Shown here: positions 24,901 to 40,310 of the stretch, one piece after another | Numbering within the stretch: position 1 is the first letter of the stretch | Layout of the letters: each line of letters opens with the position of its first letter | Notes under the pieces: generated by a model | Databases searched by the model: none | Told to the model about the DNA's origin: nothing | The model's input: only the letters and a program-made list of their open reading frames with translations | Assembly (NCBI GenBank): GCA_017624495.1 | Contig: JAGAMY010000027.1 | Coordinates: 1 to 49,157, forward strand | DNA length: 49,157 nucleotides | DNA from: Lachnospiraceae bacterium | GTDB lineage: Bacteria; Bacillota; Clostridia; Lachnospirales; Lachnospiraceae | Direction of reading: 5' to 3' | Translations under genes and position numbers: made by a program

Positions 24901-25621
24901 CTGGGCAACGTTACAGACAGCATTAACAGGTGCAAAAGCTGTAAATGATGATTCACAGGCTACAGAAAGCATGATTAGTGAAGTGGTAAGCGCATTGACA
25001 GATGCTAAGACAAAATTGGTGAAAGCGCAGGTAACACAGCCAACACCAGAAACTCCACAGAACCCAGAAACCCCACAGAATCCGGAAACTCCGCAGACAC
25101 CACAGACTCCACCAGCAACAGAAACCACAATCACTTTAAGCGAAACGAAAGTAGTTATGGGTCTTAAAGAAAAGAATGTGAAATTAACAGCTGATGTTGA
25201 GGGTGCAGCAGCCGGACAGGCAGTTACATGGTCATCTAGTAATGAAAAAGTAGCAACTGTAAAAGATGGAAAGATTACAGCTTCGAATAAGAAAACAGGT
25301 AAAGCAACAATTACAGCCACAACGGCAGACGGCAAGACTGCAACCTGTGAAGTAGTTGTAAAGAAAGCGCCTACAAAGATTACATTAAATAAAAAGAGCG
25401 TAACCTTAAACTTAAAGAAAAAGAAAACTTTCCAGATTAAAGTAAAGAAATATAAACCAAGCAATGCAGCAAGCTACAAACTTACTTACAAATCAAGTAA
25501 GAAGAAAATAGCAGATGTATCCAAAACAGGATTAGTAACCGCTAAGAAAAAAGGCACAACAAAGATTACGGTTAAGACATACAATGGTAAAAAAGCAACC
25601 ATTACAATTAAAGTAAAATAG
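21950..25621 (+). CDS. Secreted multidomain GH43 glycoside hydrolase with LamG, Ig-like and FIVAR modules
   Basis: 1223 residues. Signal peptide ~1-30 (ending DVSA); LamG/concanavalin domain ~32-265; Ig-like spacer domains ~275-475 (TGWTSSNPDIMSNEGVI; TWESTNEEVIRTTADGKIL); five-bladed GH43 propeller ~477-805 with the RDP motif in HGLRDPFIIRS (~525), WAPEAYW (~602) and a Glu in GGGQIEGACIS (~714) as likely catalytic positions; Big_4 domain ~807-896; two FIVAR helical repeats ~897-1027; Pro-rich linker; two C-terminal Ig-like domains, the last very Lys-rich. GH43 enzymes cleave arabinose- or xylose-containing glycans. No LPxTG motif; the basic tail may hold it to the wall. It lies downstream of a monosaccharide importer, which fits use of the released sugars. 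Own promoter and terminator. Confidence 0.9.
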   Translation: MKFKQWLKTALAGTLAFAMVATSIPMDVSAVDTQYTEDLVLHWDMTADENGNLKDLTGNGHAGKQNGSVSLSTVETIPVLNMTGGYVDIPDGTISTEATEVTVNMLVKISENVPASWMFCLGTNNKRYMYFTGCCSADQGKVMRGGVGNAPDSGNGWSYESVVTGEQALTAGEWQNVTVTYKDGGNFVFYLNGEKQAEQAISAGNAVKDERTCTLQGLMKANDDRDGYMGWSFYTGNDPKFQGAVADFKIYEREMNAEEVSALYGEVSDTLIDLKLSDFGPSNIDLKAEDCLSDGISADAVTADLQLPTTTTISVEEYTKEAQITGWTSSNPDIMSNEGVINPMVKDVEVTMTAEVTFNGRTVEKPLTFIVAADKQPDKVVAWDEEWLTISNVKDIRGNITLPAIGDADSSITWESTNEEVIRTTADGKILPGKVTRQEEDTEVKLTATIAYGEGEDKVTATKEFDCVVKAKAEVGEMTDYLFAYFPYTSTKDERIYFGISDDGTNFDALNDGKFVLESKLGTHGLRDPFIIRSPEGDKFYLIATDLTVAGVTQDGVKYPGMGWGDNQRMGSKSIMVWESTDLVNWSEQRMCEVADEAAGCTWAPEAYWDEETEQFVVFWASMIDGQHNVWLATTRDFYSFSEPQVWIDEAASVIDTTVIKAGDYYYRYTKNESGSKNVYGTPSKRVYCERSTSLLGEWELVHSDSLNVGGGQIEGACISKINPEDVKTVKAYAAAKGITLEGDEIYCLSADQTGSTVFLGLSDDITKGWFHVLGTAKNEEVDGVSIYSMPEPDASHGTIMPITSAEYEALQEAYGTPVMGDVEVPEVVEVGYDESAIPSSVKVSMGRIYVDADVTWTKEGSFAEIGTVTLTGTTEEVTILGKTVEAATITKEINVVDKTALKAKIAEAEALEESTYTSASWKKLESALKKAKTENTTQTAIDNAVKALADAMDELVALGDKSALQTLIAEVEKLVATEYTTESWATLQTALTGAKAVNDDSQATESMISEVVSALTDAKTKLVKAQVTQPTPETPQNPETPQNPETPQTPQTPPATETTITLSETKVVMGLKEKNVKLTADVEGAAAGQAVTWSSSNEKVATVKDGKITASNKKTGKATITATTADGKTATCEVVVKKAPTKITLNKKSVTLNLKKKKTFQIKVKKYKPSNAASYKLTYKSSKKKIADVSKTGLVTAKKKGTTKITVKTYNGKKATITIKVK
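25046..25099 (+). repeat. Three tandem 18-bp repeats coding for a Pro-rich linker
   Basis: Three consecutive 18-base units encode PETPQN, PETPQN and PETPQT inside the GH43 gene, joining the FIVAR repeats to the C-terminal Ig-like domains. Third-position differences between units show they are not a fresh duplication. Confidence 0.9.
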
Positions 25622-25808: not shown

Positions 25809-25838
25809 ATTAATAACTGATGTACTGGAGGAATGCGA

Positions 25839-27290
25839 ATGGGGCAGAACAGCTTGTTTCAATTTTCCATAGATAATGCATTGGAAATTATAGTGATATT
25901 TGATGATGGCGGGACAATTTTATATGCCAATCAGTCAGCAAAAGAACAATTAGAATATGAAGAACTGTGTGATAGTCCGATTACAGAGATTTTTCCGGGA
26001 GCATTTCAAATTGCAGACGGATGTATTGTCATGGAAATGCAGGCAGACGGTGAAATGCAGACAATGATGGCATACCGCAAAAACCGGACATGTTTTCCTG
26101 TTAAGGCAAAGCTGTTTGCATACGATAATGCAGAAGAATTTGGTATCAATGATGAACAGCAGATATATGTTTGTACGGCATTAAATGCTTCTACAGAAGA
26201 TTTTCTGGAGAAACAGGCGAATCGTGCAGAACAGGAAGCGGAAGAAGCACAGAAAGTGAAAAATGAGTTTGTGGCAAATGTAACCCATGAGCTTCGAACA
26301 CCTGTCAATGGCGTATTGGGAAATACACAGGAGTTGCTTAGTGAAGAAACAGAGCCAAAGAAGCTAAAGCTTCTGCATTTGATTGAACGTGGCTGCAGGG
26401 ACATGAATGCATTGATTAACAATATTTTGGATTTCTCCAAATTAGAGGCAGGAAAGTTTGTTTTAGAGCCACGAAGATTCAATTTCCGCAGTATGCTTGA
26501 TTATGTAAAAGGAAATCACAGTAACCGCATTATAGAAAAAGGGTTACAATTTTCCATTATGGTATCACCGGAAGTTCCGGAGTTTATCATTGGTGATGAG
26601 CTTAGAATTGTGCAGATTTTAAATAATTTGTTGTCAAATGCATATAAGTTTACCTCCGTAGGTGAAATACATGTAGAGATTGTAAAAACTGCGCAGATGG
26701 GAAATCGTGCAGAATTATTCTTTATGGTTATCGATACGGGAATAGGAATTGCAAGGGCAGATCAGGACAAACTGTTTAAGAGTTTTTCGCAGGTAGATGC
26801 CTCTATTTCAAGAAAATATGGCGGAACCGGTCTTGGACTAAATATTACCAAGCAGTTAGTGGAACTTATGGATGGCAGTATACATGTAGATAGTGAAGTG
26901 GGACGCGGGACGACATTTTCCTTTCATGTATGGGTAGAAATACCACAGGAAGACTGCAAAAATGAACAGGAATTTTCCATGAGCCTGGAAGAACAGGAAT
27001 TACTCTATAAATTAAAGAATCTGACCGAGAATTCTGTTAGTGAAAATATACGAAAATATGGTACAACGGAAAATAAAAAAGAACTGGAAAAGAAAATGTC
27101 GAAGCTGATTCTTTCCGTAGAAATGGAAAACTGGGAAAAGGCAGAGATGTTTGCAGAATCAGTAAAACAGTTAGTAGAAGAGGCACCAAGAGAAGTAAAG
27201 AGTGCAGCACTTCGATTGAAAATGGCAGTACAAAAGGGCGATTATGAGAAGGCATCAGCCGCTTTTGAGTTGTTACAGGAAACGATGTAG
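25839..27290 (+). CDS. Cytoplasmic PAS-domain sensor histidine kinase
   Basis: 483 residues from ATG 25839, chosen over ATG 25833 because GGAGG at 25827-25831 gives proper spacing. No membrane segment. A PAS domain (~1-115; SIDNALEIIVIFDDGGTILY) is followed by HisKA with the phosphoacceptor His in FVANVTHELRTPVNG, then the ATPase domain with N box (NNLLSNAYKFTSVGE), G1 (DTGIGIA), F box (FKSFSQVDAS) and G2 (GGTGLGLNI). A ~100-residue helical C-terminal extension without a recognisable receiver or Hpt His ends the protein. It begins a cluster of ten signalling genes and probably phosphorylates one of the downstream receivers. Confidence 0.92.
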   Translation: MGQNSLFQFSIDNALEIIVIFDDGGTILYANQSAKEQLEYEELCDSPITEIFPGAFQIADGCIVMEMQADGEMQTMMAYRKNRTCFPVKAKLFAYDNAEEFGINDEQQIYVCTALNASTEDFLEKQANRAEQEAEEAQKVKNEFVANVTHELRTPVNGVLGNTQELLSEETEPKKLKLLHLIERGCRDMNALINNILDFSKLEAGKFVLEPRRFNFRSMLDYVKGNHSNRIIEKGLQFSIMVSPEVPEFIIGDELRIVQILNNLLSNAYKFTSVGEIHVEIVKTAQMGNRAELFFMVIDTGIGIARADQDKLFKSFSQVDASISRKYGGTGLGLNITKQLVELMDGSIHVDSEVGRGTTFSFHVWVEIPQEDCKNEQEFSMSLEEQELLYKLKNLTENSVSENIRKYGTTENKKELEKKMSKLILSVEMENWEKAEMFAESVKQLVEEAPREVKSAALRLKMAVQKGDYEKASAAFELLQETM

Positions 27291-27308
27291 GCATCATGGA
27301 GGAGAAGG

Positions 27309-28382
27309 ATGACAGAAATGAAATCGACCAGAGAAATTCCACGGATTCTGATTGTGGATGATGTGGAAGCGAACCGGTTTATTTTAAGGGATATTATATC
27401 CGAAATGGGATATCAGCCGGTTTTGACGGAAAAAGGTACACAGGCACTAAAAATGGTGCAGCATATGAAGATTCATTTGATTATTCTTGATATTGCCATG
27501 CCGGAAATGGATGGATATGAGGTCTGCCGACAGTTGAAGGAAGACCCGGCGACAAGGGAAATACCGGTTATATTTATATCTGCTTTTGATGAACCGGCAG
27601 ATATAGTAAAAGGTTTTTCCATCGGTGGAGAAGATTATGTTACCAAGCCGTTTATTCCGGAAGTAGTAAAAGCGAGAGTGGATATGCATTTGAAGCTTTC
27701 AGAGGCAAACCGCAGTATGATGGAAATGAATCGTCAGTTACAGAAATCTGTCAGTGAACAGCTTAAGCAGATGGAGGCGGAACGGAGAAGTGTTTTATAT
27801 GCACTGCTTCGGGTGGCAAGGGAAAATGCCTGCTATGATGACAATTATATGGACAGATTAAGCTACAACTGCCGTATACTGGCAGAAGCTTTGCAGATGT
27901 CTGCCATGTATGGTTATCTGATATCGGATAATTATATTGATACAATTGAACTGGCTGCGCCGTTATGTGATTTGGGTAATATGGCGATTCCTACCCAGAT
28001 TTTACAAAAACAGGGAAGACTTACACCGGAGGAAAATTCAACTATGCGTACGCATACGGTGATTGGTGCAAGGATACTTCGGGATATTGGTAATGCCGGT
28101 ATAGATAATGGCATGATACATATGGCGGTGGAAATAGCTAATTCCCATCATGAGAACTGGGATGGTACAGGGTATCCGGATGGTAAGAAAGGGGAAGAAA
28201 TTCCGCTTTCTGCACAGATTGTAGCAGTAGCAGGTGCTTACTGTGCGTTGACGGAGAATCGAAGTTATCGTGAAGCGTTCAGTCAGGATAAGGCATTTGA
28301 AATAATGGAGGAAGATGTTGAAATTAAGTTTAATCCGGATATTTTCTGGGTGTTAAAAAAGATTTCAAGACAGCTTCGTTAA
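27309..28382 (+). CDS. Response regulator with degenerate HD-GYP domain
   Basis: 357 residues. The receiver domain (1-130) is intact: D17/D18, phosphoacceptor D61 in IILDIAMPEMDG and Lys in VTKPF. A coiled linker leads to an HD-GYP-like domain (~160-357). The GYP part (HHENWDGTGYPDG) and the H in MRTHTVIG are kept, but HDxGK reads C220-D-L-G-N224, and the downstream VADvfDAL reads VAGAYCAL (G309, C312). Loss of metal ligands suggests it no longer hydrolyses cyclic di-GMP and may act by binding. A GGAGG site precedes the ATG. The gap to the kinase gene is 18 bases. Confidence 0.9.
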   Translation: MTEMKSTREIPRILIVDDVEANRFILRDIISEMGYQPVLTEKGTQALKMVQHMKIHLIILDIAMPEMDGYEVCRQLKEDPATREIPVIFISAFDEPADIVKGFSIGGEDYVTKPFIPEVVKARVDMHLKLSEANRSMMEMNRQLQKSVSEQLKQMEAERRSVLYALLRVARENACYDDNYMDRLSYNCRILAEALQMSAMYGYLISDNYIDTIELAAPLCDLGNMAIPTQILQKQGRLTPEENSTMRTHTVIGARILRDIGNAGIDNGMIHMAVEIANSHHENWDGTGYPDGKKGEEIPLSAQIVAVAGAYCALTENRSYREAFSQDKAFEIMEEDVEIKFNPDIFWVLKKISRQLR

Positions 28383-28412
28383 AAGATATAAATGGTACAT
28401 GGGGTTACATAC

Positions 28413-29216
28413 ATGACAAATGAAGAGTTTTTGCGGATTAGTTATTTTGTAAAGAGCCGTTATGGTATAGATATGGACCGCAAGAAAGAAATCATAGACG
28501 GTAGACTTAAAAATTATATCGCAGCACAAGGGTTTGATAGTTACAGTGCTTATATGAATGCAGTAGAGAAGGATATTACCGGAGGGTTAGAAAGAGAGTT
28601 AGTCAATATACTGACGACAAATCATACCTTTTTTATGCGGGAATTTGAGCATTTTGACTTTTTAAAACAGGTGGTACTTCCTGAGCTTCGCAAAAAGGAA
28701 GAGAGGAGAAAGGATTTGTGTATCTGGTGTGGAGCTGCATCCACAGGTCAGGAACCCTATATGTTAGCGATGCTATTAAAGGAATTTTTTGGTTTGGAGC
28801 ATGGGTTGTGGGATACAAAAGTTCTTGCAACAGATATTTCTACAGAGGTATTGCAACAGGCTGTAGCAGGCAGATATGACAGAGAACAGATTGAGTGTCT
28901 GCCGGATACATGGAAACGTCGTTTTTTACGTTCCATAGATAATGGTATGCGTTATGAAATTACGCAGGAAATTAAGGATGAGGTACTGTTTCGACAGTTT
29001 AATCTCATGGATGCATTTCCTTTTAAAAGGAAAATGCACGTTGTCTTTTTGCGGAATGTCATGATTTATTTTGATAAGGAAACAAAAGGGCAGTTAATAC
29101 AAAAGGTATATGATGTGATGGAACCGGGAGGGTATTTGTTTGTTGGCAGGACAGAAACTATCGACAGAAACAATACACCTTTTAGGATGGTTCAGCCATC
29201 TATATTCCGAAAATAA
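28413..29216 (+). CDS. cheR: CheR chemoreceptor methyltransferase
   Basis: 267 residues from ATG 28413 (GGGG upstream; the in-frame ATG at 28392 lacks a site). The N-terminal helical domain (FLRISYFVKSRYGIDMDRKK) is followed by the SAM-binding domain with IWCGAASTGQEPYMLAM, VLATDISTEVLQQAVAGRY, and FLRNVMIYFDKETKGQLI. CheR methylates receptor glutamates and works against CheB, whose gene follows 17 bases later. The SAM loop has GAAST where AGCST is more common, but the Glu is kept. Confidence 0.95.
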   Translation: MTNEEFLRISYFVKSRYGIDMDRKKEIIDGRLKNYIAAQGFDSYSAYMNAVEKDITGGLERELVNILTTNHTFFMREFEHFDFLKQVVLPELRKKEERRKDLCIWCGAASTGQEPYMLAMLLKEFFGLEHGLWDTKVLATDISTEVLQQAVAGRYDREQIECLPDTWKRRFLRSIDNGMRYEITQEIKDEVLFRQFNLMDAFPFKRKMHVVFLRNVMIYFDKETKGQLIQKVYDVMEPGGYLFVGRTETIDRNNTPFRMVQPSIFRK

Positions 29217-29233
29217 GAAAGGGAGAATGACAT

Positions 29234-30262
29234 ATGCGTCAGATACGGGTATTAGTAGTCGAAGATTCTCTGGTTTTCAGGGAACTATTGGTGCAGAATC
29301 TGAATGCGGACCCCGCTATTACGGTAGTGGCAGCAGCAAGGGATCCCTTTGAAGCAAGAGATGCGATTGTAAAACATAAGCCGGATGTTATGACACTGGA
29401 TATAGAGCTTCCACGCATGAATGGGATAGAATTTTTAAAGAAATTAATGCCGCAGTATCCACTTCCGGTGGTGGTTATCAGTTCCTTGAGTGAAAAGGTA
29501 TTTGATGCCATGAATGCCGGGGCGGTAGATTTTGTAGCAAAGCCACAGGGAGCGAACCGTGAACAATTAACAGCATTTATAAAAAATGATCTTCCGGTGA
29601 AGATAAAAGTAGCATCCATAGCGAAGGTGAGCAGTTGGAAAAAAGCACCGCTTACCATGCCAAATCAGCCACTTTCCATAAGTAATAAAGATTTAATTGT
29701 GGCAATTGGGGCTTCTACCGGTGGTACAGAGGCGATTGCTTCTGTATTAAAAGAATTTGGTAAGGATATACCGGGAGTGGTGGTTGTACAGCATATGCCG
29801 CCGGGGTTTACCGCTATGTATGCAGAGCGGTTAAATACACAGTGTCAAGTAAGTGTAAAAGAAGCAAAATCCGGGGATGCAGTTGTGCCGGGACAGGTAT
29901 TGATTGCACCGGGTGGTGATGCACATATGCAGTTAGTAGAAAGAAATGGTGTATATCAGGTTGTTGTCCGACAGGGACCAAAAGTAAATGGGCATTGTCC
30001 GTCTGTAGATGTTCTGTTTCATTCGGTAGCGGATGTAGCAGGAAGCAGGGCGGTAGGTATAATTTTAACCGGAATGGGAGGCGATGGTGCAAAAGGTCTT
30101 CTTGCTATGCGAAAAGCGGGAGCAAGAACGATTGGGCAGGATGAATCCACTTGTGTTGTCTATGGTATGCCAAAAGTGGCATATGACTTGGGGGCAGTGG
30201 AGTATCAGGAAAAATTGCCGGATGTTGCGAAGAGAACCTACATGGTTTTAAACAAAATGTAA
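29234..30262 (+). CDS. cheB: CheB chemoreceptor methylesterase/deamidase
   Basis: 342 residues. The receiver domain has D11 and phosphoacceptor D56 (MTLDIELPRMNG); the C-terminal methylesterase has the catalytic triad S161 (GASTGG), H187 (VQHMPPGFT) and D284 (TGMGGDGA). Length and motif spacing are standard. It demethylates receptors when phosphorylated by CheA, giving adaptation. AAAGGGAG lies upstream of the ATG; the next gene starts 21 bases after the stop. Confidence 0.97.
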   Translation: MRQIRVLVVEDSLVFRELLVQNLNADPAITVVAAARDPFEARDAIVKHKPDVMTLDIELPRMNGIEFLKKLMPQYPLPVVVISSLSEKVFDAMNAGAVDFVAKPQGANREQLTAFIKNDLPVKIKVASIAKVSSWKKAPLTMPNQPLSISNKDLIVAIGASTGGTEAIASVLKEFGKDIPGVVVVQHMPPGFTAMYAERLNTQCQVSVKEAKSGDAVVPGQVLIAPGGDAHMQLVERNGVYQVVVRQGPKVNGHCPSVDVLFHSVADVAGSRAVGIILTGMGGDGAKGLLAMRKAGARTIGQDESTCVVYGMPKVAYDLGAVEYQEKLPDVAKRTYMVLNKM

Positions 30263-30283
30263 CAGGCAGAAAGGAAGAGAAAA

Positions 30284-30676
30284 ATGAAGATTTTATTAGC
30301 AGAGGACGATTTCGTCACAAGAAAATTTATGACAGGTTTCTTGTCAAAATACGGTGAATGTGATGTTACCGTAGACGGAATGGAAGCAGTAGATGCTTTC
30401 ATGATGGCATTAGAAGATGATGAGCCATATGATTTGGTTTGCTTAGATATTATGATGCCGGTTATGGATGGATATCAGGCACTTATGGGTATCCGTAATT
30501 TAGAAAAAGAGCGGAATATTCCGCCGGAGAAAGCGGCAAAGGTGATTATGACTACCGCATTAAACGAAGAAAAAAATGTCAAAATGGCATTTGAACTTGG
30601 ATGTACAGTATATTCAGGTAAGCCGATTGATCAGGATAGATTTGAACAGGTTTTAAAGAAATTTGGACTGGTATAA
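30284..30676 (+). CDS. Single-domain response regulator (CheY-like)
   Basis: 130 residues, receiver domain only: D8/D9, phosphoacceptor D55 in CLDIMMPVMDG, T90/T91 in VIMTTA and K113 in YSGKPI. It lies directly before cheA and is the obvious phosphate acceptor of that kinase, but whether it binds a flagellar switch is unknown. The loop PPEKAAKV between beta-4 helices is longer than in E. coli CheY. Confidence 0.92.
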   Translation: MKILLAEDDFVTRKFMTGFLSKYGECDVTVDGMEAVDAFMMALEDDEPYDLVCLDIMMPVMDGYQALMGIRNLEKERNIPPEKAAKVIMTTALNEEKNVKMAFELGCTVYSGKPIDQDRFEQVLKKFGLV

Positions 30677-30697
30677 AACTAGAGAAAGGAGCATGAA

Positions 30698-32860
30698 ATG
30701 GCAGAAGAGTTTAATACCCAGGGAATGTTAGACATGTACCTGTTTGAGAACGGACAACTGCTTGAAAGGCTTCAGGAAATCGTATTAGAGCAGAAGGATG
30801 AAGATTGTTTCGATGAGGACAGTATCAATGAGATATTCCGTACGATGCATACAATCAAAGGTTCTTCCGGGGTAATGATGTTTGATGAAGTTACCAAGAT
30901 ATCCCACAAGTTAGAAGATGTATTCTTCTATCTGCGAGAGTCAAAACCGGACAATGTTCCCCATTTAGAATTGGTGGAACATGTTCTGCAGGTGGCAGAT
31001 TTTATCACAGGAGAGTTAGAAAAACTACAGGATGGTGAATCTGCGGATGGGGATGCAACTGAAATCGTAGCAGCCATCGATGCATTTCTGACAGCCATCA
31101 AGAATGGAGAGGGAGAACAGGGTAAGGAGATTAAGGAAAATGTGCATGAGGAGCCACAGCAGTTTTATATTGCACCAATGGCGACAAGTGCAAGTCATTT
31201 TTACAAGATTTACCTGACTTTCCATCCGGATGTACAGTTAGCAAACGTACATGCCTACAAAACAGTTTATGCGTTAAAGGAAATTGCAGAAGATTTATTG
31301 CATTATCCTGAAGATATTATTTCTGATGAATCCACAGCAGAGGAAATTTTAGAAAATGGCTTTAAGATATTATTACAGTCACAGAGTACAGAAGAGCAGC
31401 TGCGTGAGATTGTACAGGAAGGTTACGAATTAAAGAAAGTAGATATTTATGAATGTAGTGCCAAGGAGTTTCAGCAGGGATTTGACAGCTTTGGCACGGA
31501 AATCCGCATAGATTTAGAATCCAGCGTGGAAGAGATTGAAGCGAAAGCAGAACAAGCCGAACAGGCAGAAAGTGCCAAAACTCCGGTAAAACAGCCGGAG
31601 CCAAAGAAGATTGCGCCCGGTGATTTCGTTATTGAATCTAAAGAGCCCGGTAAAGGAAAGAAACTAGCCAAAGATAAGCCGAAAAAGCAGGAAAAAGCAC
31701 AGTTTATCAGTGTGGATGTGCACAAGATGGATATGTTGATGGACTTAATCGGTGAATTGGTAATTTCCGAGTCTGTTGTATTGCAGAATCCGGATTTAAA
31801 AGTACCGGGATTAAAACTGGATAATTTCAATAAAGCAGCAGGACAGATGACAAAAATTTCTACGGATTTGCAGAATGTTATTATGAGCATGCGAATGATG
31901 CCGCTGACAAATACTTTCCAGAAAATGAACCGAATCGTATTTGATGTTTCCAGAAAATTAGGAAAAGAAATCGAATTTGAAATGATTGGTGAACATACAG
32001 AGGTGGATAAGAATATCATTGAACATATTTCTGACCCACTTATGCATTTGGTAAGAAATGCGGTAGACCATGGAATTGAAAGCGTAGAAGAACGTCAGGC
32101 AAGCGGGAAAACAGAAAAAGGTAAGATTACTTTAAAAGCAAAGACCGAATCCGGAAAAGTATGGATAAGCGTACAGGATAATGGAAAAGGCTTAAATCGT
32201 GATAAGATTCTGGCGAAAGCAAGAAAGCAGGGAATCATTGACCCGTATAAACCGGATAGTGCTTATGCAGATAAAGAAGTGTATCAGTTTATTACATTGC
32301 CGGGATTTTCCACAAATGAGAAGGTTACCGAATATTCCGGTCGAGGCGTAGGTATGGATGTAGTTGTATCCAATTTAGCATCCATAGGCGGAACATTAGA
32401 AATTGAAAGTACACCGGGACAGGGAAGTACCATGAATTTAAAGATACCATTGACACTTTCCATTATTGATGGAATCGTTATGGAAGTAGGAAAGTCCTCT
32501 TTTGTTATCGAAACTGGTTCTGTAAAAGAATTTGTCGGTGTCCGCGAAGATATGCTCTATCATGAGCCAAGCGGTGAAGAGTTTGTTATGCTTCGTGGTG
32601 AAGGGTATCCGGTACTTCGAATTGGTGAATGGTACAATTTAAAAGATTATCAGGCAAACACAAACGAAGGTATGCTTGTATTGGTGGAAGTGGAAGAAAA
32701 GATGATTTGTCTGTTTGTAGACCGTTTAGTGGGCAAACAGGAGATTGTTGTAAAACCAATTCCGGATTATATCAAAAAAGTAAAAGGTTTATCAGGTTGT
32801 ACCCAGTTAGGTGATGGAAGTATTGCACTGATTCTGGATGCACCGGGATTAATTGAATAA
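30698..32860 (+). CDS. cheA: CheA chemosensory histidine kinase
   Basis: 720 residues. P1 Hpt domain with H51 in FRTMHTIKGSSGVMMF; a P2-like regulator-binding domain at ~150-265; an acidic/basic linker (~270-330); P3 dimerisation helices (DMLMDLIGELVISESVVL); P4 ATPase with HLVRNAVDHGIES, DNGKGLNRDKI and GRGVGMDVVVSNLASIGG; and P5 CheW-like C-terminus. Domain order is that of classical CheA. It autophosphorylates on P1 and passes phosphate to CheB and the single-domain regulator. AAAGGAG precedes the ATG; cheW follows after 32 bases. Confidence 0.97.
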   Translation: MAEEFNTQGMLDMYLFENGQLLERLQEIVLEQKDEDCFDEDSINEIFRTMHTIKGSSGVMMFDEVTKISHKLEDVFFYLRESKPDNVPHLELVEHVLQVADFITGELEKLQDGESADGDATEIVAAIDAFLTAIKNGEGEQGKEIKENVHEEPQQFYIAPMATSASHFYKIYLTFHPDVQLANVHAYKTVYALKEIAEDLLHYPEDIISDESTAEEILENGFKILLQSQSTEEQLREIVQEGYELKKVDIYECSAKEFQQGFDSFGTEIRIDLESSVEEIEAKAEQAEQAESAKTPVKQPEPKKIAPGDFVIESKEPGKGKKLAKDKPKKQEKAQFISVDVHKMDMLMDLIGELVISESVVLQNPDLKVPGLKLDNFNKAAGQMTKISTDLQNVIMSMRMMPLTNTFQKMNRIVFDVSRKLGKEIEFEMIGEHTEVDKNIIEHISDPLMHLVRNAVDHGIESVEERQASGKTEKGKITLKAKTESGKVWISVQDNGKGLNRDKILAKARKQGIIDPYKPDSAYADKEVYQFITLPGFSTNEKVTEYSGRGVGMDVVVSNLASIGGTLEIESTPGQGSTMNLKIPLTLSIIDGIVMEVGKSSFVIETGSVKEFVGVREDMLYHEPSGEEFVMLRGEGYPVLRIGEWYNLKDYQANTNEGMLVLVEVEEKMICLFVDRLVGKQEIVVKPIPDYIKKVKGLSGCTQLGDGSIALILDAPGLIE

Positions 32861-32892
32861 AAAATAAACATATAAGAAAGGAATAGGTGCAT

Positions 32893-33399
32893 ATGAGTGA
32901 GTTTGAAACACAACGTGATAAATATGTGACCTTCAAATCCGGGAATGAATATTTCGCATTAAAAATTCAGTATGTAAATGAGATTATTGTTTTTCAGGAA
33001 ATTACAGAAGTACCGGAAAGTGAAGATTACATAAAAGGGCTTATTAACCTGAGGGGTAAAATCATCCCGGTCATTGATGTCAGGGTACGTTTTAAACAGG
33101 AACCTATCGAATATACAGACAGAACCTGTATTATTGTCATCAATGTAAAGGACACAGTTGTAGGCCTGATTGTAGAAAAAATTGCGGAAGTAGTAGAGAT
33201 TACAGAAGAAAATATTCTTCCGCCACCGTCTGCAACCATCGGACATGAAGAGAAATCCCAGAACAAATATGTATATGGGATTGGAAAAGTGGGAGAAAGT
33301 GTAAAGCTTCTGCTTGACCCGGACAGATTATTAAAAGATGAAGACTTAACTGTATTAGATCAGATTAGTGAAGAAACAGACATGGAAGAAGGAGAGTAA
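32893..33399 (+). CDS. cheW: CheW coupling protein
   Basis: 168 residues from ATG 32893 (AAAGGA 10 bases upstream; an in-frame GTG at 32887 is possible). The two SH3-like subdomains are recognisable: [39 protein letters not shown] and [20 protein letters not shown]. CheW links the chemoreceptor to CheA P5. Its stop lies 5 bases before the chemoreceptor ATG, whose ribosome binding site is inside the cheW 3' end. Confidence 0.96.
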
Positions 33400-33404
33400 T
33401 TACT

Positions 33405-34757
33405 ATGGGCAAAAATATGAAAGTATCTACACAATTAGCAATTGGCTTTATTATTATTGAAGCATTACTTGTAATTTCATTGTATACAGGGTATACAACA
33501 GCAGCACAGATTATTACTGTAGAAGATCCACAGCATTATTTAGGCAGTTATGCGAAATTTACCGCTGTGATGTTTATTGCCATGATGATTATATCTACAG
33601 GTGTTGCAGTTACGATGACAAGAAAAATTCGTGTAGCATGTGCAGATTTGAAAGTTGCAGCAGATGCGCTTGCAGCCGGAAAAGTGGATATGAAATTAGA
33701 AAAACGCAGTAATGATGAGTTTGGTGAGTTAGCAGATGATTTCCAGAAAGTAGTAGACAATATGCGTTATCAGGCACAGATTGCACAGGAAGTTGCCAGT
33801 GGAAACATGCAGGTAGATGTAAAACTGTTATCGGATGAAGATGTATTAGGTATTGCTTTAAAAACAATGATTCAGGGAAACAATCATGCCATTGGAAGTA
33901 TCAAAGAATCTGCATATCAGGTTACTACAAGCTCCTCACAGGTAGCAAGTGCAAGTGAAGCTTTAGCACAGGGTTCTACAGAACAGGCAAGTGCTATCGA
34001 ACAGATTACAGCATCTATTGCAGATGTAGCAACTAAGACAAAAGAAAATGCAGATATGGCAAACAATGCAGAAGAATTAATTTTACAAGCAATTGAAGAT
34101 GTGAAAAAAGGTAACGAAGAAATGCAGCAGATGGTGGTTGCTATGCAGGATATCAATAAATCCTCAGAAAGCATTTCCAAGATTATTAAGGTTATCGATG
34201 ATATCGCATTCCAGACTAATATTTTAGCATTGAATGCAGCAGTAGAAGCAGCAAGAGCTGGAGAAGCAGGAAAAGGCTTTGCCGTAGTAGCAGAAGAAGT
34301 AAGAAACTTAGCAGCAAAGAGTTCTTCCGCAGCAGCAGAAACAGCAGAATTAATCGAGGATTCTATTCAGAAGGTAGAAGCAGGTTCTCAGATTGCAAAT
34401 GGTACAGCAGAAGCATTAGAAGAAATTACAAAAGTAGTACAGCAGAGTGAAGCTTTGATTACAGAAATTGCAGAAGCATCCAATTATCAGGCAACAGCTA
34501 TTGCACAGATTGACCAGGCGGTAGAACAGGTATCACAGGTAGTACAGACCAATTCTGCTACCAGTGAAGAGTGTGCGGCAGCCAGCATGGAATTATCCAA
34601 TCAGGCAAGCAGAGTTCGTGATTTGCTTTCTGTATATAAATTAAAAGAGCATCCGCAGATGTCTATGGGAATGGGCATGACAGGTCATGCTTATGCAGGT
34701 TCTGTAGATAGAAATGAACAGATTATATCCTTAAATGACAGCTTTGGAAAATACTAA
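33405..34757 (+). CDS. Methyl-accepting chemotaxis protein with a minimal external loop
   Basis: 450 residues. TM1 at ~9-31 ([20 protein letters not shown]) and TM2 at ~49-68 ([18 protein letters not shown]) are separated by only about 20 residues, so there is no external ligand-binding domain. HAMP (starting [14 protein letters not shown]), a second HAMP-like or linker segment, and the signalling tip [20 protein letters not shown] follow. It probably senses a membrane or cytoplasmic cue, or another membrane protein. Co-transcription with cheA/cheW marks it as the dedicated receptor of this system. The terminator after it divides the cluster from the two hybrid kinases. Confidence 0.94.
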
Positions 34758-34769
34758 AATATTGCAGAT

Positions 34770-34820
34770 GAGCATGTTGGCATCCGGACTAAAACCGGAT
34801 GTCGGGATGCTCTTTGTTGC
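34770..34820 (+). terminator. Hairpin terminator after the chemoreceptor
   Basis: Arms GAGCAT...CATCCGG (34770-34787) and CCGGATG...ATGCTC (34795-34812) pair with an internal mismatch loop, followed by TTTGTTGC. The T tract is modest, so read-through to the kinases is possible. Confidence 0.7.
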
Positions 34821-34871: not shown

Positions 34872-37640
34872 GTGGACAAAGTAACGTATGACAGAAATCA
34901 AAAAAATATAGAAAGATTTCTGATGGGAATTTATGTTATGTATACGGTTTCCATTATAGCTACATTTGCAGATAAAGAAAATGGTGGCTGGATGGCATTT
35001 ATGCTCCTGTTTGAGCTGATGATTAGCCTTATTGTACATATCAGTGAATATAAGGATTATGCATTTCGGGCAAAATTTTCTGCAATTATGATGCAGTGCA
35101 GTATGATACTATATGCAGTATCTGTGGAAGAGATTTCAAAGGCGTTGCCATCTTTTTTAACATTTACGGTTTGTCTTGGGTTATTTGGTATCCCGGATAT
35201 TATTTATACATCTGTAGTGGCAACATTTGTGATGTTTATTTATCATGGTTTGATTTTAGGATATTTTGAAGTGGATACGGCTGCTGAAATTGGCAGACTG
35301 ATATCCCAGATGGTAAATGTATTATTGTTAGAATACATTGTATATATATGGACAAAGAGGAATAGTGAAGGCAGCACACAGTTATTGGGAGTTATCAATG
35401 ATTTAAAAGAAGTGGAAAGCACAAAGGATGATTTTGTGGCAAATGTCAGTCATGAAATCAGAACACCGATAAATACTATTTGCGGAATGAGCGAAATCAT
35501 GCTGCGGGAAGAACTGCCTTATAAGATAAAAGACCAGTTATTAGATATTCAGCGGGCAGGACGGAATCTGATGTCAATTGTCAGTGATATCTTAGATTTC
35601 TCAGAATTGCAATCCGGTGAGATGGAGTTAGAGGAAGAGGCTTACAATATCACATCTACGATAAATGATGTTATCAATATGACGATGGCAAGAAAAAATG
35701 AAAAGAAGATTGAAGTTATTGTGGATTGTAATGCCAATATTCCCAGTGTGCTTTTAGGAGATGAAAAGAAGCTGCGCCGTGTTATTATGAATCTGGTAGA
35801 CAATGCCATAAAATTCACAGAAGAAGGCTGTGTCAGCATCATGGTAGGTTATCGTAAAGAAAGTTATGGGATAAATCTTACGGTTGCGGTGAAAGATACA
35901 GGAATTGGTATGGATGAAAAAAGTGTAGAAAAACTTTTTACCACATTCAGTCAGGTGGATGCCAGCAGAAAACGTCAGGAAGGCGGCATTGGTTTAGGAC
36001 TTGCCATTTCCCATGCTCTTGTTAAGAAGATGGGTGGTGCGATTACTGTAAAAAGCAAATTGGGAAGAGGAAGTTTTATCCAGTTTACAGTACCGCAAAA
36101 GGTATTGGATGAAACACCATTAGCAACTCTTGAAGACAGAGAAAATGTCCGTGTGGCAACGTATATTGATATGGAACAGTTCGATATGATGGCTATTCGT
36201 GATGAATATACAAAAACAATTATGCACATGGTAGAACAGCTTCGGGGAAAATGTCACATTTGCCGCAATTTTGCAGAGTTACAGCGACGGGAAGCAAAAG
36301 AAGGTTTTTCGCATATATTTATCAGTATTGCGGAATATAAGGAAGAGCAGATTTATTTTGATGAATTATCCAGAAGAGCAAAGGTGGTTGTGATTTTAGA
36401 GCATGAGGATGAAAAAAATGTAACAAATCCAAGATTGTTAAAGATTTACAAGCCATTTTACATTTTGTCTGTTGTTTCTGCTTTAAACGGTTCTTATGAT
36501 GGTGAAGAAATGCAGACCTCTGTCAAAATGGAGAAATTTATTACGAAAGATGCCCATATTTTAGTGGTGGATGATAATCGTATGAATCTTAGGGTAATAG
36601 AAGGACTTCTTGCAAATTATCAGATAAAAGTGACGAAAGCTACCAGTGGTCGAGAGGCTTTAGAAAAGGTAGTTACAGCAGACTATGATTTTATCTTTAT
36701 GGATCATATGATGCCGGAAATGGATGGTGTGGAGACCATGCAACGTATCCGTCATAAAGTGGGAACGTATTATCAGAAAGTCCCGATTGTGGCATTGACT
36801 GCAAATGCTGTTGCAGGTACAAGAGAAATGCTTTTAGCCGAAGGATTTGATGATTTCTTAGAAAAGCCAATCGAGCGTTCTGTATTAGAGCGTGTACTTA
36901 GACGTAACATTCCGGAGGAAAAGATTGTTATCTGTAAAGAACAGAAAGAAAAGGAAAAGACCATAGAACAGGTACAGGTTCAGATGCCTGTGACAGCATT
37001 AAGTCTTGAAGAAAAGATAACGGCTGCAGGTCTGGATGTAAAAAAAGGTGTTCTGTATTGCAATGGACAGGAGGCATATATCAAAGTTTTACAGGGATAT
37101 TGTGAAGATTATGATGATGCCGGCGCACAGGCAGAGGATTTATTTGAAAAGCAGGATTGGAAAAATTATACCATTACTGTTCATGGAATGAAGAGTGCTA
37201 TGCGAAGTATTGGTGCCTTAGATATTTCAGATATGGCGCTTGGTCTTGAAATGGCAGGAAAAGAAGGAAGAATATCCTATATTTTGGAAAATCATAGGGA
37301 TTTAGTGGATGCACACCGGAAGCTTTTGAAGCGTCTGCGGGAGATTGAAGAGCTTTGTCCAAAGAAGGAAGTGCAGGAGGTACAAAAGAGCAGTGCACTG
37401 CCAGAGCTGGAAGATTCCCAGTTTGATAGGTTTATAGCAGATATGGAAGAAGCAATGTATTCATTAAATGGCAGCAGGTTATTGGAAATTATTGCCGATT
37501 TGCAGAAATATCAGTATCATGGAGAAAGCTTAGAAAACTCCCTGATGCAGATAAAACGAAAGGCAGAAATGTCAGATTATATTTCAGCAGTGGAGATGAC
37601 TGTACAGCTAAAGCAGAGTTTGGCAGATAAGGAGAAATAA
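34872..37640 (+). CDS. Membrane hybrid histidine kinase with pseudo-receiver, receiver and Hpt domains
   Basis: 922 residues if GTG 34872 is the start; GGGAGG at 34860-34865 abuts the in-frame ATG 34866, so the GTG is better spaced. Several N-terminal membrane segments (~15-165) are followed by HisKA (FVANVSHEIRTPINTICGMS), ATPase (MNLVDNAIKFTEEG, DTGIGMDE, GIGLGLAISHA), a degenerate receiver (~420-550, no Asp pocket), an intact receiver (~558-680; ILVVDDNRMNL, IFMDHMMPEMDG, LEKPI) and an Hpt domain with His in TITVHGMKSAMRSIG. This is a complete internal phosphorelay (His-Asp-His). The final phosphate would leave through the Hpt. The next kinase follows after 3 bases. Confidence 0.93.
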   Translation: MDKVTYDRNQKNIERFLMGIYVMYTVSIIATFADKENGGWMAFMLLFELMISLIVHISEYKDYAFRAKFSAIMMQCSMILYAVSVEEISKALPSFLTFTVCLGLFGIPDIIYTSVVATFVMFIYHGLILGYFEVDTAAEIGRLISQMVNVLLLEYIVYIWTKRNSEGSTQLLGVINDLKEVESTKDDFVANVSHEIRTPINTICGMSEIMLREELPYKIKDQLLDIQRAGRNLMSIVSDILDFSELQSGEMELEEEAYNITSTINDVINMTMARKNEKKIEVIVDCNANIPSVLLGDEKKLRRVIMNLVDNAIKFTEEGCVSIMVGYRKESYGINLTVAVKDTGIGMDEKSVEKLFTTFSQVDASRKRQEGGIGLGLAISHALVKKMGGAITVKSKLGRGSFIQFTVPQKVLDETPLATLEDRENVRVATYIDMEQFDMMAIRDEYTKTIMHMVEQLRGKCHICRNFAELQRREAKEGFSHIFISIAEYKEEQIYFDELSRRAKVVVILEHEDEKNVTNPRLLKIYKPFYILSVVSALNGSYDGEEMQTSVKMEKFITKDAHILVVDDNRMNLRVIEGLLANYQIKVTKATSGREALEKVVTADYDFIFMDHMMPEMDGVETMQRIRHKVGTYYQKVPIVALTANAVAGTREMLLAEGFDDFLEKPIERSVLERVLRRNIPEEKIVICKEQKEKEKTIEQVQVQMPVTALSLEEKITAAGLDVKKGVLYCNGQEAYIKVLQGYCEDYDDAGAQAEDLFEKQDWKNYTITVHGMKSAMRSIGALDISDMALGLEMAGKEGRISYILENHRDLVDAHRKLLKRLREIEELCPKKEVQEVQKSSALPELEDSQFDRFIADMEEAMYSLNGSRLLEIIADLQKYQYHGESLENSLMQIKRKAEMSDYISAVEMTVQLKQSLADKEK

Positions 37641-37643
37641 CAG

Positions 37644-40310
37644 ATGTGGAAAAAGATTGTTCAGCTTGTTCATGGAAAAGACTGTGAATTGCGGGAAAGA
37701 ATGTTACGTTCAATCATTCTGGTTGGTGCGATAGCAACGGTAGTTGCAATTACGGAAATCATACTTGTAATGGAAGTAAACACAGGACTGTTGGCAATGT
37801 TGCTGTTACTTTTATTTGTCATGGGTTTAGATTTTGTGCTTACTTTTAAATATCGACAGTATGATTTTGCAGCTATATTGCTTGGTGTGGTTATTGCTGC
37901 CGTTGTTATGCCGATTATGTATTTGGTAAGTGGGGCAATTGAGAGTGGAGCTTCTGTCTGGCTTGTGCTGGGCATACTGTACATATTCATTATGTTTAGT
38001 GGAAAAAGACTGGTGTTCTTTTTACTATTGTGCATAACTTCATATGCAATTACATTTGGGCTGGCGTATGCGTATCCACAGTTAATCGTTCCCATGTCAT
38101 CGCGTTCAGCCGCATATTTTGATGCATTTTTCTCTGTGCTGGCAGTAGGAGCAGTGACGGGTGCGATTTTAAAGGCACATATGCTTGTGTTTGAAAATGA
38201 GCATAAATTAACGATTAAGCAACAGGAAAAAATAGAAGAAGCAAGTAATTCCAAAAATGTATTTTTTGCAAATATGAGTCATGAAATCCGTACACCGATT
38301 AATGCGATTATTGGTTTAAATGAAATGATTCTGCGGGCAAACCCAACAGGAGAAACAAGGGAATATGCCATGGATATCCAGCTGGCAAGTCAGATGCTTT
38401 TAAATCAGGTAAATGATATTTTAGATTTGTCACAGATTGAAATGAAAAAAATGCACATTATTCCTGTGGAGTATCAGACAAAGGAAGTGTTTAAAGAATT
38501 ATCGGAGTTGATTCGTGCACAGTTGGAAAAGAAAAAACTCGAATTCTATTTAGATGTTGACCCGAATCTGCCAAGTACGCTTTTGGGTGATGTGAAAAGA
38601 TTGCGGCAGATTTTGTTGAATATTCTGGATAATGCCGTAAAGTATACGGAAACAGGTTCTGTTACCTTAACAGCACAAAAAGAAGAGGTGAATACAGGAG
38701 AGATTGTTTTAAAAGTTAAGGTGGCTGATACAGGAATTGGTATCCGTAAAGAGGATGTAGAGCATATTTATGATTCTTTTAAACGTATCGATGAAAAGAA
38801 AAATGCGCAGGTAATGGGCAGCGGTTTAGGCTTAGCTATCACGAAACAATTAGTTGACCTGATGGATGGTGAAATTACCATAGACAGTATTTATACAAAG
38901 GGTACAATATTTACAGTCAGTATAAAACAAAAAGTCGTGGACGCAAGACCGATTGGTACAATGGATATCGGCAGAAGTACCAAAGGGGAAATTTATAGGC
39001 CGAGTTTTGAGGCTGTTGAAGCAAGAATTCTGATTGTGGATGATAACAAAATGAATTCTATGGTGGCAAGCCGTCTGTTAATGGATACCAAAGTGCAGAT
39101 TGATATTGCAAACAGTGGTTATGAATGTTTAGAAATGACCCGTAAGAAATATTATCATGTGATTTTATTAGATTATATGATGCCGGGAATGGGTGGAGCA
39201 GAAACATTAAAGGCACTTCGTAATCAGGAAAATGGTCTGTGCAGGGATTCCGCAGTAATTGTGCTGACGGGAAATGCCTTGTCCGGAGCAAAGGAAGCAC
39301 TTATGGATCAGGGCTTTGACGGATATGTGGAAAAGCCGATACAGGGAAAGGTTTTAGAAAAAGAAATATTAAAATTCCTGCCGGGAGATATTATTGAATA
39401 TCAGGAATCTGCTCATATCGAAGCAGAAGCAGACAGTCAGATTCAAAGAATTACAGGAAAGAAACGTAAGAAGGTATGTATTACAGCAGATTGTGCCTGT
39501 GATTTACCGGAAGAGCTTTTAGAAAAATACGATATTAAGCTGATGTATCTCTATGTAAAAACACCACATGGCCGTTTTGCGGACACAAGGGAAATTGATT
39601 CAGACAGTTTGATGCAGTACATATCTAAAGATAGTACAACAGCTTTTGCAGATAAGGTAATGGTAGAAGAATACGAAGAATTTTTTGCAGAGGTACTGAC
39701 ACAGGCAGAATCCGTGATACATCTTGCATTAGCATCTAAGTCAGGACGAAGCCATAGTATATCTGTGGAAGCAGCCAAGGGATTTGACCATGTACACGTT
39801 ATTGATTCCGAACAGGTATCCGGCGGACAGGGACTGGTTGTTTTATATGCAGCAAAAATGGCAATGGAGGGCAGAAGCGTAAATGCTATTTGTGAGGCTT
39901 TAAATGAAATGAAAAGTAAAGTTCGTATGAAATTTATTATGCCCGGAGCAGAAATTTTTTATCATAATGGACGTATTAAAGCATTGCCGGCAAAAATCTG
40001 CAGTCTGTTACAGCTGCATCCGTTAGGAGAAGTCAGACAGAGTAAGACGACTCTTGTGCGGATAATGACAGGAAGCTTAGAAAGCGCATGGAAACGTGCT
40101 ATTCGCTGGCATTTGCGTAAAAAATGGCGGATAAACCGGGATGTGGTATTTATTACGCATGTGGGATTAAGTGTAAAGCAACAGGAAATGGTTATTAAAG
40201 AAATATTAAAGTGTATTCCGTTTGAGCAGGTTATTATACAAAAAGCATCTTTTACAACGGCATGTAATGTCGGATTAGAAACCATCGGAATTGCATATTA
40301 TACATTATAA
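37644..40310 (+). CDS. Hybrid histidine kinase fused to a C-terminal DegV (fatty-acid-binding) domain
   Basis: 888 residues. About five or six membrane segments lie in ~20-180; HisKA has His in FFANMSHEIRTPINAIIGLN; the ATPase has NILDNAVKYTETG, DTGIGIR and SGLGLAITKQL; the receiver has ILIVDDNKMNS, ILLDYMMPGMGG and VEKPI. Residues 611-888 form a full-length DegV domain: VCITADCACDLPEELLEKYD, DSTTAFADK, ALASKSGRSHSI, HVIDSEQVSGGQGLVVLYAA, YHNGRIKA and the final FTTACNVGLETIGIAYY. DegV/FakB proteins bind one fatty acid. Here the usual final His of the THxGPG motif is Cys. The domain likely makes the kinase respond to, or act on, a lipid; inference. AAGGAG precedes the ATG, 3 bases after the previous stop. 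Confidence 0.9.
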   Translation: MWKKIVQLVHGKDCELRERMLRSIILVGAIATVVAITEIILVMEVNTGLLAMLLLLLFVMGLDFVLTFKYRQYDFAAILLGVVIAAVVMPIMYLVSGAIESGASVWLVLGILYIFIMFSGKRLVFFLLLCITSYAITFGLAYAYPQLIVPMSSRSAAYFDAFFSVLAVGAVTGAILKAHMLVFENEHKLTIKQQEKIEEASNSKNVFFANMSHEIRTPINAIIGLNEMILRANPTGETREYAMDIQLASQMLLNQVNDILDLSQIEMKKMHIIPVEYQTKEVFKELSELIRAQLEKKKLEFYLDVDPNLPSTLLGDVKRLRQILLNILDNAVKYTETGSVTLTAQKEEVNTGEIVLKVKVADTGIGIRKEDVEHIYDSFKRIDEKKNAQVMGSGLGLAITKQLVDLMDGEITIDSIYTKGTIFTVSIKQKVVDARPIGTMDIGRSTKGEIYRPSFEAVEARILIVDDNKMNSMVASRLLMDTKVQIDIANSGYECLEMTRKKYYHVILLDYMMPGMGGAETLKALRNQENGLCRDSAVIVLTGNALSGAKEALMDQGFDGYVEKPIQGKVLEKEILKFLPGDIIEYQESAHIEAEADSQIQRITGKKRKKVCITADCACDLPEELLEKYDIKLMYLYVKTPHGRFADTREIDSDSLMQYISKDSTTAFADKVMVEEYEEFFAEVLTQAESVIHLALASKSGRSHSISVEAAKGFDHVHVIDSEQVSGGQGLVVLYAAKMAMEGRSVNAICEALNEMKSKVRMKFIMPGAEIFYHNGRIKALPAKICSLLQLHPLGEVRQSKTTLVRIMTGSLESAWKRAIRWHLRKKWRINRDVVFITHVGLSVKQQEMVIKEILKCIPFEQVIIQKASFTTACNVGLETIGIAYYTL

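Follow-up and report, generated by a model that had tools for sequence, protein, structure and literature searches.

What a DegV domain might do at the end of a hybrid histidine kinase is the question raised by one gene on contig JAGAMY010000027.1 of a Lachnospiraceae bacterium (assembly GCA_017624495.1), whose 49 157 nucleotides (nt) were analysed as a single stretch and are referred to here as the window. FakB proteins, to which DegV domains are related, are carriers that present fatty acids to FakA. An original prediction, made from the letters of the window alone, held that the joining of such a domain to a phosphorelay kinase points to direct sensing of a bound fatty acid or to lipid delivery gated by phosphorylation. 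The comparisons described below lend about even credence to a modified reading, in which a FakB-derived DegV domain no longer serves FakA as a carrier and acts as a ligand-responsive regulator of a phosphorelay made up of two adjacent kinases, HK1 and the fusion HK2-DegV.

Domain architecture of the fusion protein

The fusion gene (Table 1) is a single open frame of 888 amino acids (aa) with no internal stop in its translation. A hydropathy scan and Pfam searches bear out the predicted arrangement of membrane helices, HisKA, ATPase, receiver and DegV domains in one frame, and the complete 278-residue DegV domain expected from about residue 611 is recovered at residues 610–887 with high significance (PF02645; E = 3.9e-37, 128.6 bits against a cut-off of 27, model positions 1–279 of 280). 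The domain also passes NCBIfam TIGR00762 (130.3 bits, cut-off 99.7), the model that NCBI already names 'DegV family EDD domain-containing protein', and thus belongs to the DegV family by full-length match above the curated cut-off.

The acceptor His of HisKA, the ATP-binding boxes and the Asp and Lys of the receiver that characterize a hybrid histidine kinase are all present in the window protein. Among 92 proteins with a histidine kinase (HK), receiver (REC) and DegV in this order, the window included, the acceptor His is kept in 90, the phospho-Asp and the receiver Lys in 91 each, and the N, G1 and G2 box residues that were checked are identical in all 92. Taken together, the HisKA His and Glu, the N-box, the G-box and the receiver Asp and Lys are kept in 90 to 92 of the 92, and the receiver Thr/Ser in 90.

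An assembly error or a frameshift joining two separate genes, the outcome that would have undone the prediction, did not occur. The frame is uninterrupted, and the same fusion is found in an orthologue from the same genus (L036; JAGALK010000076.1 of Lachnospiraceae bacterium RGIG8549 from water deer caecum; one 899-aa frame, 73% identical over the best segment), as a second, divergent copy on another contig of the window's own genome (G000:C36; DegV part 40% identical), on the 3.19-Mb contig of a one-contig genome (L066) and in dozens of further genomes. Between the window and L036 the nonsynonymous divergence (dN) is 0.21 in the DegV domain; the synonymous divergence (dS) is saturated (2.5 in DegV, with no estimate for the membrane part), and therefore low dN alone is claimed for these two closest orthologues.

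Occurrence and phylogeny

A survey for proteins with both kinase and DegV domains showed the architecture to be recurrent across many genomes of the family. A profile built from an alignment of 14 such DegV domains (13 fused domains plus the stand-alone L041) was run against 397 family genomes, and by hand count among the matches listed at least 70 of these have a match inside a frame of at least 485 aa; at most six candidates were scored per genome, and a few of the frames in the 70 genomes are cut or lack a kinase check. Because such domains recur in long frames across the family, the fusion is not an artefact, and the possibility of a rare one-off fusion is rejected on the same ground. Wider searches took in 391 genomes from the class (E up to 1e-58) and 398 from the phylum (E up to 1e-70); at these thresholds, which could have missed more divergent fusions, kinase fusions turned up in this family and in three genomes of one genus (g410) of another family.

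The collection comprises 99 fused-type domains in frames of at least 330 aa, including the window and L036: 73 in HK-REC-DegV proteins, 19 in which DegV is followed by at least 60 residues, and seven others, namely DegV-HK-REC (L108), DegV-dCache-HK-REC-Hpt (L114), DegV-HK-Hpt (L130), DegV-Hpt (L124 and L145) and two cut by contig ends (L063 and L146). Domains with fewer than 230 model positions (L049, L050 and L068), loci repeating a fetched region and two further fusions (L051 and L052) were left out. Pfam was run on a sample of the fused proteins; length, DegV position and kinase alignment served to sort the others. The 43 stand-alone domains used for comparison are biased towards good scorers with the fused-domain profile. 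Two fusions, L132 (7249–9837) and L134 (7225–9837), lack the acceptor His and have no kinase immediately upstream; L134 also lacks the phospho-Asp, and L132 has no Pfam HisKA or receiver match and is followed by a cache-GGDEF gene.

In a FastTree tree of 154 DegV domains, a branch with support of 1.0 separates the 99 fused-type domains and six stand-alone genes, each of which adjoins a kinase gene, from the 43 comparison domains, 2dt8, the L051 and L052 fusions and three further stand-alone genes. When the tree is rooted on 2dt8, five of these six stand-alone genes form the sister group of the remaining 100 members of this clade of 105, which suggests that kinase adjacency preceded fusion, with modest tree support (0.69 for the group of five, 0.84 for the group of 100). 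The window falls in a subclade of 15 members (support 0.97).

Domain databases may well list a kinase–DegV architecture. Open-access literature searches, which took in titles and the starts of abstracts and had preprints and most subscription papers outside their scope, returned no description of a kinase–DegV fusion, and none is described in the parts covered of PMC9385722, PMC3146951, PMC12288450, PMC10146087, PMC9136124, PMC8892158 and PMC5539427.

Divergence from FakB

FakB1 positions were numbered by counting in the 6alw alignment, which places Thr at 62, Ser at 95 and 171, Arg at 173 and 205, Trp at 180 and His at 270. Broussard et al. reportedly defined the family in 2016 by five of these residues (T62, S95, R173, R205 and H270). 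According to the parts covered of PMC8892158 and PMC9136124, the fatty-acid carboxylate is held in FakB1 by a network of Thr62, Ser95, Ser171 and His270, phosphorylation requires Arg173, and Arg205 has a central part in binding to FakA and the membrane.

The window protein has Ala, Gly, Arg, Thr and Asn at the five positions and so keeps one of them: Arg173 is present, and both the Thr62/Ser95/His270 network and Arg205 are gone. It has Asn at position 171, which says little since 39 of the 43 stand-alone proteins have Gly rather than Ser there. The same trend runs through the fused-type domains. Thr62 is retained in 12/99 (Ser in 69, giving Thr or Ser in 81) versus 40/43 stand-alone proteins, Ser95 in 59/99 versus 42/43, Arg173 in 41/99 versus 43/43, Arg205 in 2/99 versus 43/43 and His270 in 2/99 versus 37/43 (with three gaps), Asn having taken the place of the last in 89/99. 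Zero, one, two and three of the five residues survive in 19, 46, 32 and two fused-type proteins, respectively; stand-alone proteins keep three, four or all five (two, six and 35 proteins). The surface has changed as well: the Lys203 position is hydrophobic in 96/99 fused-type domains and in none of the 43 stand-alone ones, the Arg205 position is hydrophobic in 77/99, and the position of the membrane-inserting Trp180 is basic in 43/99 versus 2/43. All three g410 fusions have Asn at the His270 position and a kinase upstream.

With most hallmarks replaced and the docking and membrane surface altered, a role as a FakB carrier for FakA is unsupported. That role can be filled elsewhere, since each of the 12 fusion genomes tested encodes a FakA middle domain and three stand-alone DegV genes are present in the genome of the window. 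Phosphorylation-gated lipid delivery, one of the two functions offered originally, is likewise unlikely because the fused-type domains have mostly lost Arg205, Arg173 and His270.

The presence of a FakA-type gene in those 12 genomes might instead mean that the fused domain reads the Fak pathway by protein contact, docking FakA or ligand-loaded FakB in the way that the C-terminal domain of FakA docks FakB (PMC9136124, in the parts covered). This is very improbable: the FakA-contact residue Arg205 is almost never kept, and the fused domains that were scanned score as DegV, with FakA-like_C reaching at most a sub-threshold match (L096, E = 0.0087).

A sensor that shares the free fatty-acid ligands of FakB and signals their abundance to the kinase would fit the homology to FakB structures and, outside the window's subclade, the retention of Thr or Ser at position 62 in 77/84 and of Ser95 in 59/84 fused-type domains. 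In S. aureus, fatty acids are reported as negative regulators of SaeRS signalling, on which Fak acts indirectly (PMC5539427, in the parts covered). The near-universal change of the carboxylate-network His to Asn, the Ala/Gly/Asn combination in the window protein and the frequent basic residue at the Trp180 position nevertheless make such a sensor rather improbable. For the window protein in particular, the binding of a free fatty acid as in FakB is disfavoured, the carboxylate site being remodelled.

Several DegV proteins have other extensions. Outside the clade, L052 (8226–9440) carries a DegV domain with all five FakB residues intact behind an ArsR-type helix-turn-helix domain and is a second route to a DegV-linked regulator. 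In L051 (8100–9893) Dak2, FakA_M and DegV form one chain, with Phe at the Arg205 position. At L180, L181, L182, L183 and L173 the DegV proteins have their FakB residues intact and are extended at the N terminus by ∼65–190 aa; these extensions match no Pfam family at E up to 0.01.

Pairing with HK1 and placement of the Hpt domain

In the window the hybrid kinase gene HK1 ends 3 nt before the fusion gene. A same-strand histidine kinase lies immediately upstream in 95 of the 100 clade members that have an upstream gene on the fetched stretch, the call being made for a same-strand open reading frame (ORF) that, compared with the window's genes, matched a histidine kinase best. Of the 95 gaps, 67 measure −4 to +30 nt and 94 stay within 100 nt. 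The 95 include L127, L131 (whose upstream ORF probably represents a fragment of the same kinase), L071 (where one gene follows another fusion), L137 (preceded by a DegV-type kinase with its DegV encoded in a separate ORF) and some short upstream ORFs, among them those of L045 and L096. At L071 (8354–13743) two HK-REC-DegV genes stand in tandem behind one HK1. Kinases do not accompany stand-alone DegV genes in this way: there is none upstream of the three stand-alone genes outside the clade, none at −100 to +200 nt upstream of 24 stand-alone control genes (13 of which have some same-strand ORF there) and none adjoining 17 high-scoring stand-alone genes of the class and phylum (an 18th, L179, is uncalled). 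All 17 of the latter carry T, S, R, R and H at the five FakB positions.

The position of the Hpt domain connects the two genes. HK1 carries a Hpt in 62 of 63 pairs in which the DegV protein ends in DegV and in one of 23 in which that protein is longer or has DegV at its start (Pfam, E up to 0.01; HK1 C-terminal parts). Three of the 66 HK-REC-DegV pairs were left out of this count, as the DegV gene is cut by a contig end (L127), the upstream ORF is probably a fragment of the same kinase (L131) or the upstream gene is itself a fusion (L071). Among the 23 longer or DegV-first proteins, 20 have a Hpt motif after DegV and L114 has a Hpt by Pfam; L108, cut by a contig end, shows no Hpt, and L096 has none. 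Pfam detects the Hpt above its cut-off in L046, L048, L114, L130 and L145 and below it in L124. DegV is coupled straight to Hpt in L124 and L145 and lies between the receiver and the Hpt motif in 17 members. In the window, the Hpt encoded together with receivers that a phosphorelay requires is that of HK1, which scores below the Pfam cut-off and holds the acceptor His in a His-Gly-Met-Lys-Ser motif. No other observation speaks as strongly as this complementary placement for the two genes acting as one relay, in which the two kinases seem to share one Hpt.

About 150 residues between the HATPase and receiver domains of HK1 (residues 412–564, window 36099–36557) have no Pfam match. This segment is possibly a degenerate receiver, and several other HK1 proteins have a comparable gap.

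Proposed role of the DegV domain

A sensing or gating role, as originally predicted, stands as the most economical reading because the fusion is genuine, recurs and is linked to phosphorelay genes; the residue census tells against the part of the prediction that cast the domain as a FakB-like carrier for FakA. A FakB-type protein would first have been placed beside a hybrid kinase. Changes to its surface and head-group site would have ended service to FakA and FakB-like exchange of fatty acids with the membrane, and the domain would then have been fused behind the receiver of a second hybrid kinase. HK1 and HK2-DegV may pair physically, both feeding one Hpt that is on HK1 here and at the end of HK2-DegV in other members. 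The DegV domain would most likely bind a ligand inside the cell, probably a hydrophobic one, and, from its position just after the receiver or between the receiver and the Hpt, would change the flow of phosphate from kinase to receiver to Hpt. Output could pass through nearby CheY-like or HD-GYP receivers.

Several observations weigh against a ligand-responsive relay of this kind. The Hpt of the window reaches 21.7 bits, under the Pfam cut-off of 24.6. Five of the 100 clade members have no upstream kinase call (L039, L073, L132, L133 and L134), two of which (L132 and L134) are in another setting and without the acceptor His, and conserved gene order is no proof of physical interaction. Within the window's subclade Thr62 is replaced by Ala in 9/15 and Ser95 by Gly in 14/15 members; the polar head-group residues are largely gone, and there may therefore be no ligand of the FakB type. 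The DegV domain of L051, fused to Dak2/FakA_M, also lacks Arg205, so the loss of this residue may partly follow from covalent fusion, an explanation countered by its absence from the six stand-alone clade members. AlphaFold, run from two sequences only (the window and L036), gave a mean pLDDT of 33.8 and no usable model for the tunnel.

Some of these observations would suit a DegV domain that is a dead scaffold, binding no small molecule and offering a protein–protein surface that, for example, holds HK1 and HK2 together or positions the receiver and the Hpt. The hydrophobic docking patch at the Lys203 and Arg205 positions is what a buried protein interface would be expected to show, most head-group residues are missing from the window's subclade, and DegV travels with a kinase gene almost throughout the clade. 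The near-fixed Asn at the head-group His and the prevalence of Ser at Thr62 suggest a retained, altered site rather than drift, and a scaffold is considered unlikely, if a serious alternative to regulation by a ligand.

The proposed system resembles known ones in part. With FakB (PF02645; S. aureus FakB1, PDB entry 6alw; MW1315, PDB entry 4x9x) it shares the full-length domain, detectable by phmmer, and some core positions; it differs in the fusion to a kinase, in the replacement of most of the five hallmark residues and in the docking and membrane surface. Hybrid kinases of the BarA/TorS/ArcB type have the same HisKA-HATPase-receiver core and are the best NCBIfam matches, though far below the cut-offs of those models, and HK1 resembles them in its terminal Hpt; here, in contrast, DegV stands where the Hpt would be or separates it from the receiver, and there is one Hpt per two adjacent genes. 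In the LuxQ-type kinase with its partner LuxP, a ligand-binding protein is encoded beside, and acts through, a hybrid kinase. The likeness is one of outline only: DegV is not LuxP-like, no family relation is claimed, and DegV is presumably cytosolic since it is C-terminal to the receiver. In SaeRS of S. aureus a lipid pool handled by FakB likewise influences a histidine-kinase system; that link is indirect, through the free fatty-acid level that Fak lowers, whereas here DegV is part of the kinase (PMC5539427, in the parts covered).

Genomic setting

Upstream of HK1 the window encodes a chemosensory cluster ending in a methyl-accepting chemotaxis protein (MCP). The order CheA-CheW-MCP-HK1-HK2-DegV occurs in nine of the 105 clade members, the window included, mainly in the window's subclade, which holds eight of the nine loci (L136 lies outside). 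Flagellin is encoded in eight of the nine genomes, the ninth being the window's own, which is 55% complete. In many other members a receiver or receiver-HD-GYP-like gene, by best-match label only, lies just upstream of HK1. The MCP and HK1 genes are 108 nt apart, with a weak terminator-like hairpin between them, and a promoter scan of the region gave no signal (26 found, 23.5 expected).

Table 1. Location of the two kinase genes, their domains and neighbouring features in the window
Feature	Position	Strand	Basis
Upstream chemosensory cluster: PAS-HK, receiver-HD-GYP, CheR, CheB, CheY-like receiver, CheA, CheW, MCP	25833..34757	+	Pfam
Terminator-like hairpin between MCP and HK1, weak	34777..34805	+	5 such sites in region, 3.4 expected
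Partner hybrid kinase HK1, 924 aa	34866..37640	+	Pfam: HisKA 187–251, HATPase 298–411, receiver 565–677
Hpt domain of HK1, sole Hpt found in the pair	37086..37271	+	Pfam PF01627, E 2.5e-4, 21.7 bits
Hybrid histidine kinase-receiver-DegV fusion gene (HK2-DegV)	37644..40310	+	Open frame, Pfam domains, L036 orthologue
HK2-DegV membrane region, about six hydrophobic segments, residues 24–176	37713..38171	+	Simple hydropathy scan; no Pfam match
HK2-DegV HisKA, residues 204–266, phospho-acceptor His213	38253..38441	+	Pfam PF00512, E 5.5e-17
HK2-DegV HATPase_c, residues 315–429	38586..38930	+	Pfam PF02518, E 2.3e-25
HK2-DegV receiver (Response_reg), residues 462–575, phospho-acceptor Asp510	39027..39368	+	Pfam PF00072, E 2.3e-20
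DegV domain, residues 610–887	39471..40304	+	Pfam PF02645, TIGR00762, residue census, tree

Further upstream, positions 21950–25621 of the window encode a large surface-type protein with Laminin_G_3, atrophied and group 2 bacterial Ig and FIVAR domains and a sub-threshold GH43 match. At L100 (10911–13404) a DUF6976 gene and a sodium:alanine symporter follow an HK-REC-DegV-Hpt gene, and genes of ∼507 aa, recognized by length only, recur behind the fusion in several loci.

Significance

Kinase-linked DegV domains call for caution against annotation as fatty-acid carriers. With around a hundred sampled members of one DegV branch tied to histidine kinases, they offer an example, open to testing, of a metabolic carrier turned signalling component. 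It is put forward tentatively, at slightly less than even confidence, that they constitute a new class of intracellular sensor, in which a FakB-derived receptor with Asn-for-His head-group chemistry gates a paired-kinase relay with a single movable Hpt, found in many Lachnospiraceae genomes and in one genus of another family of the class. With such a sensor, whose design of two kinases and one Hpt is unusual, these bacteria might monitor a lipid or another hydrophobic metabolite within the cell.

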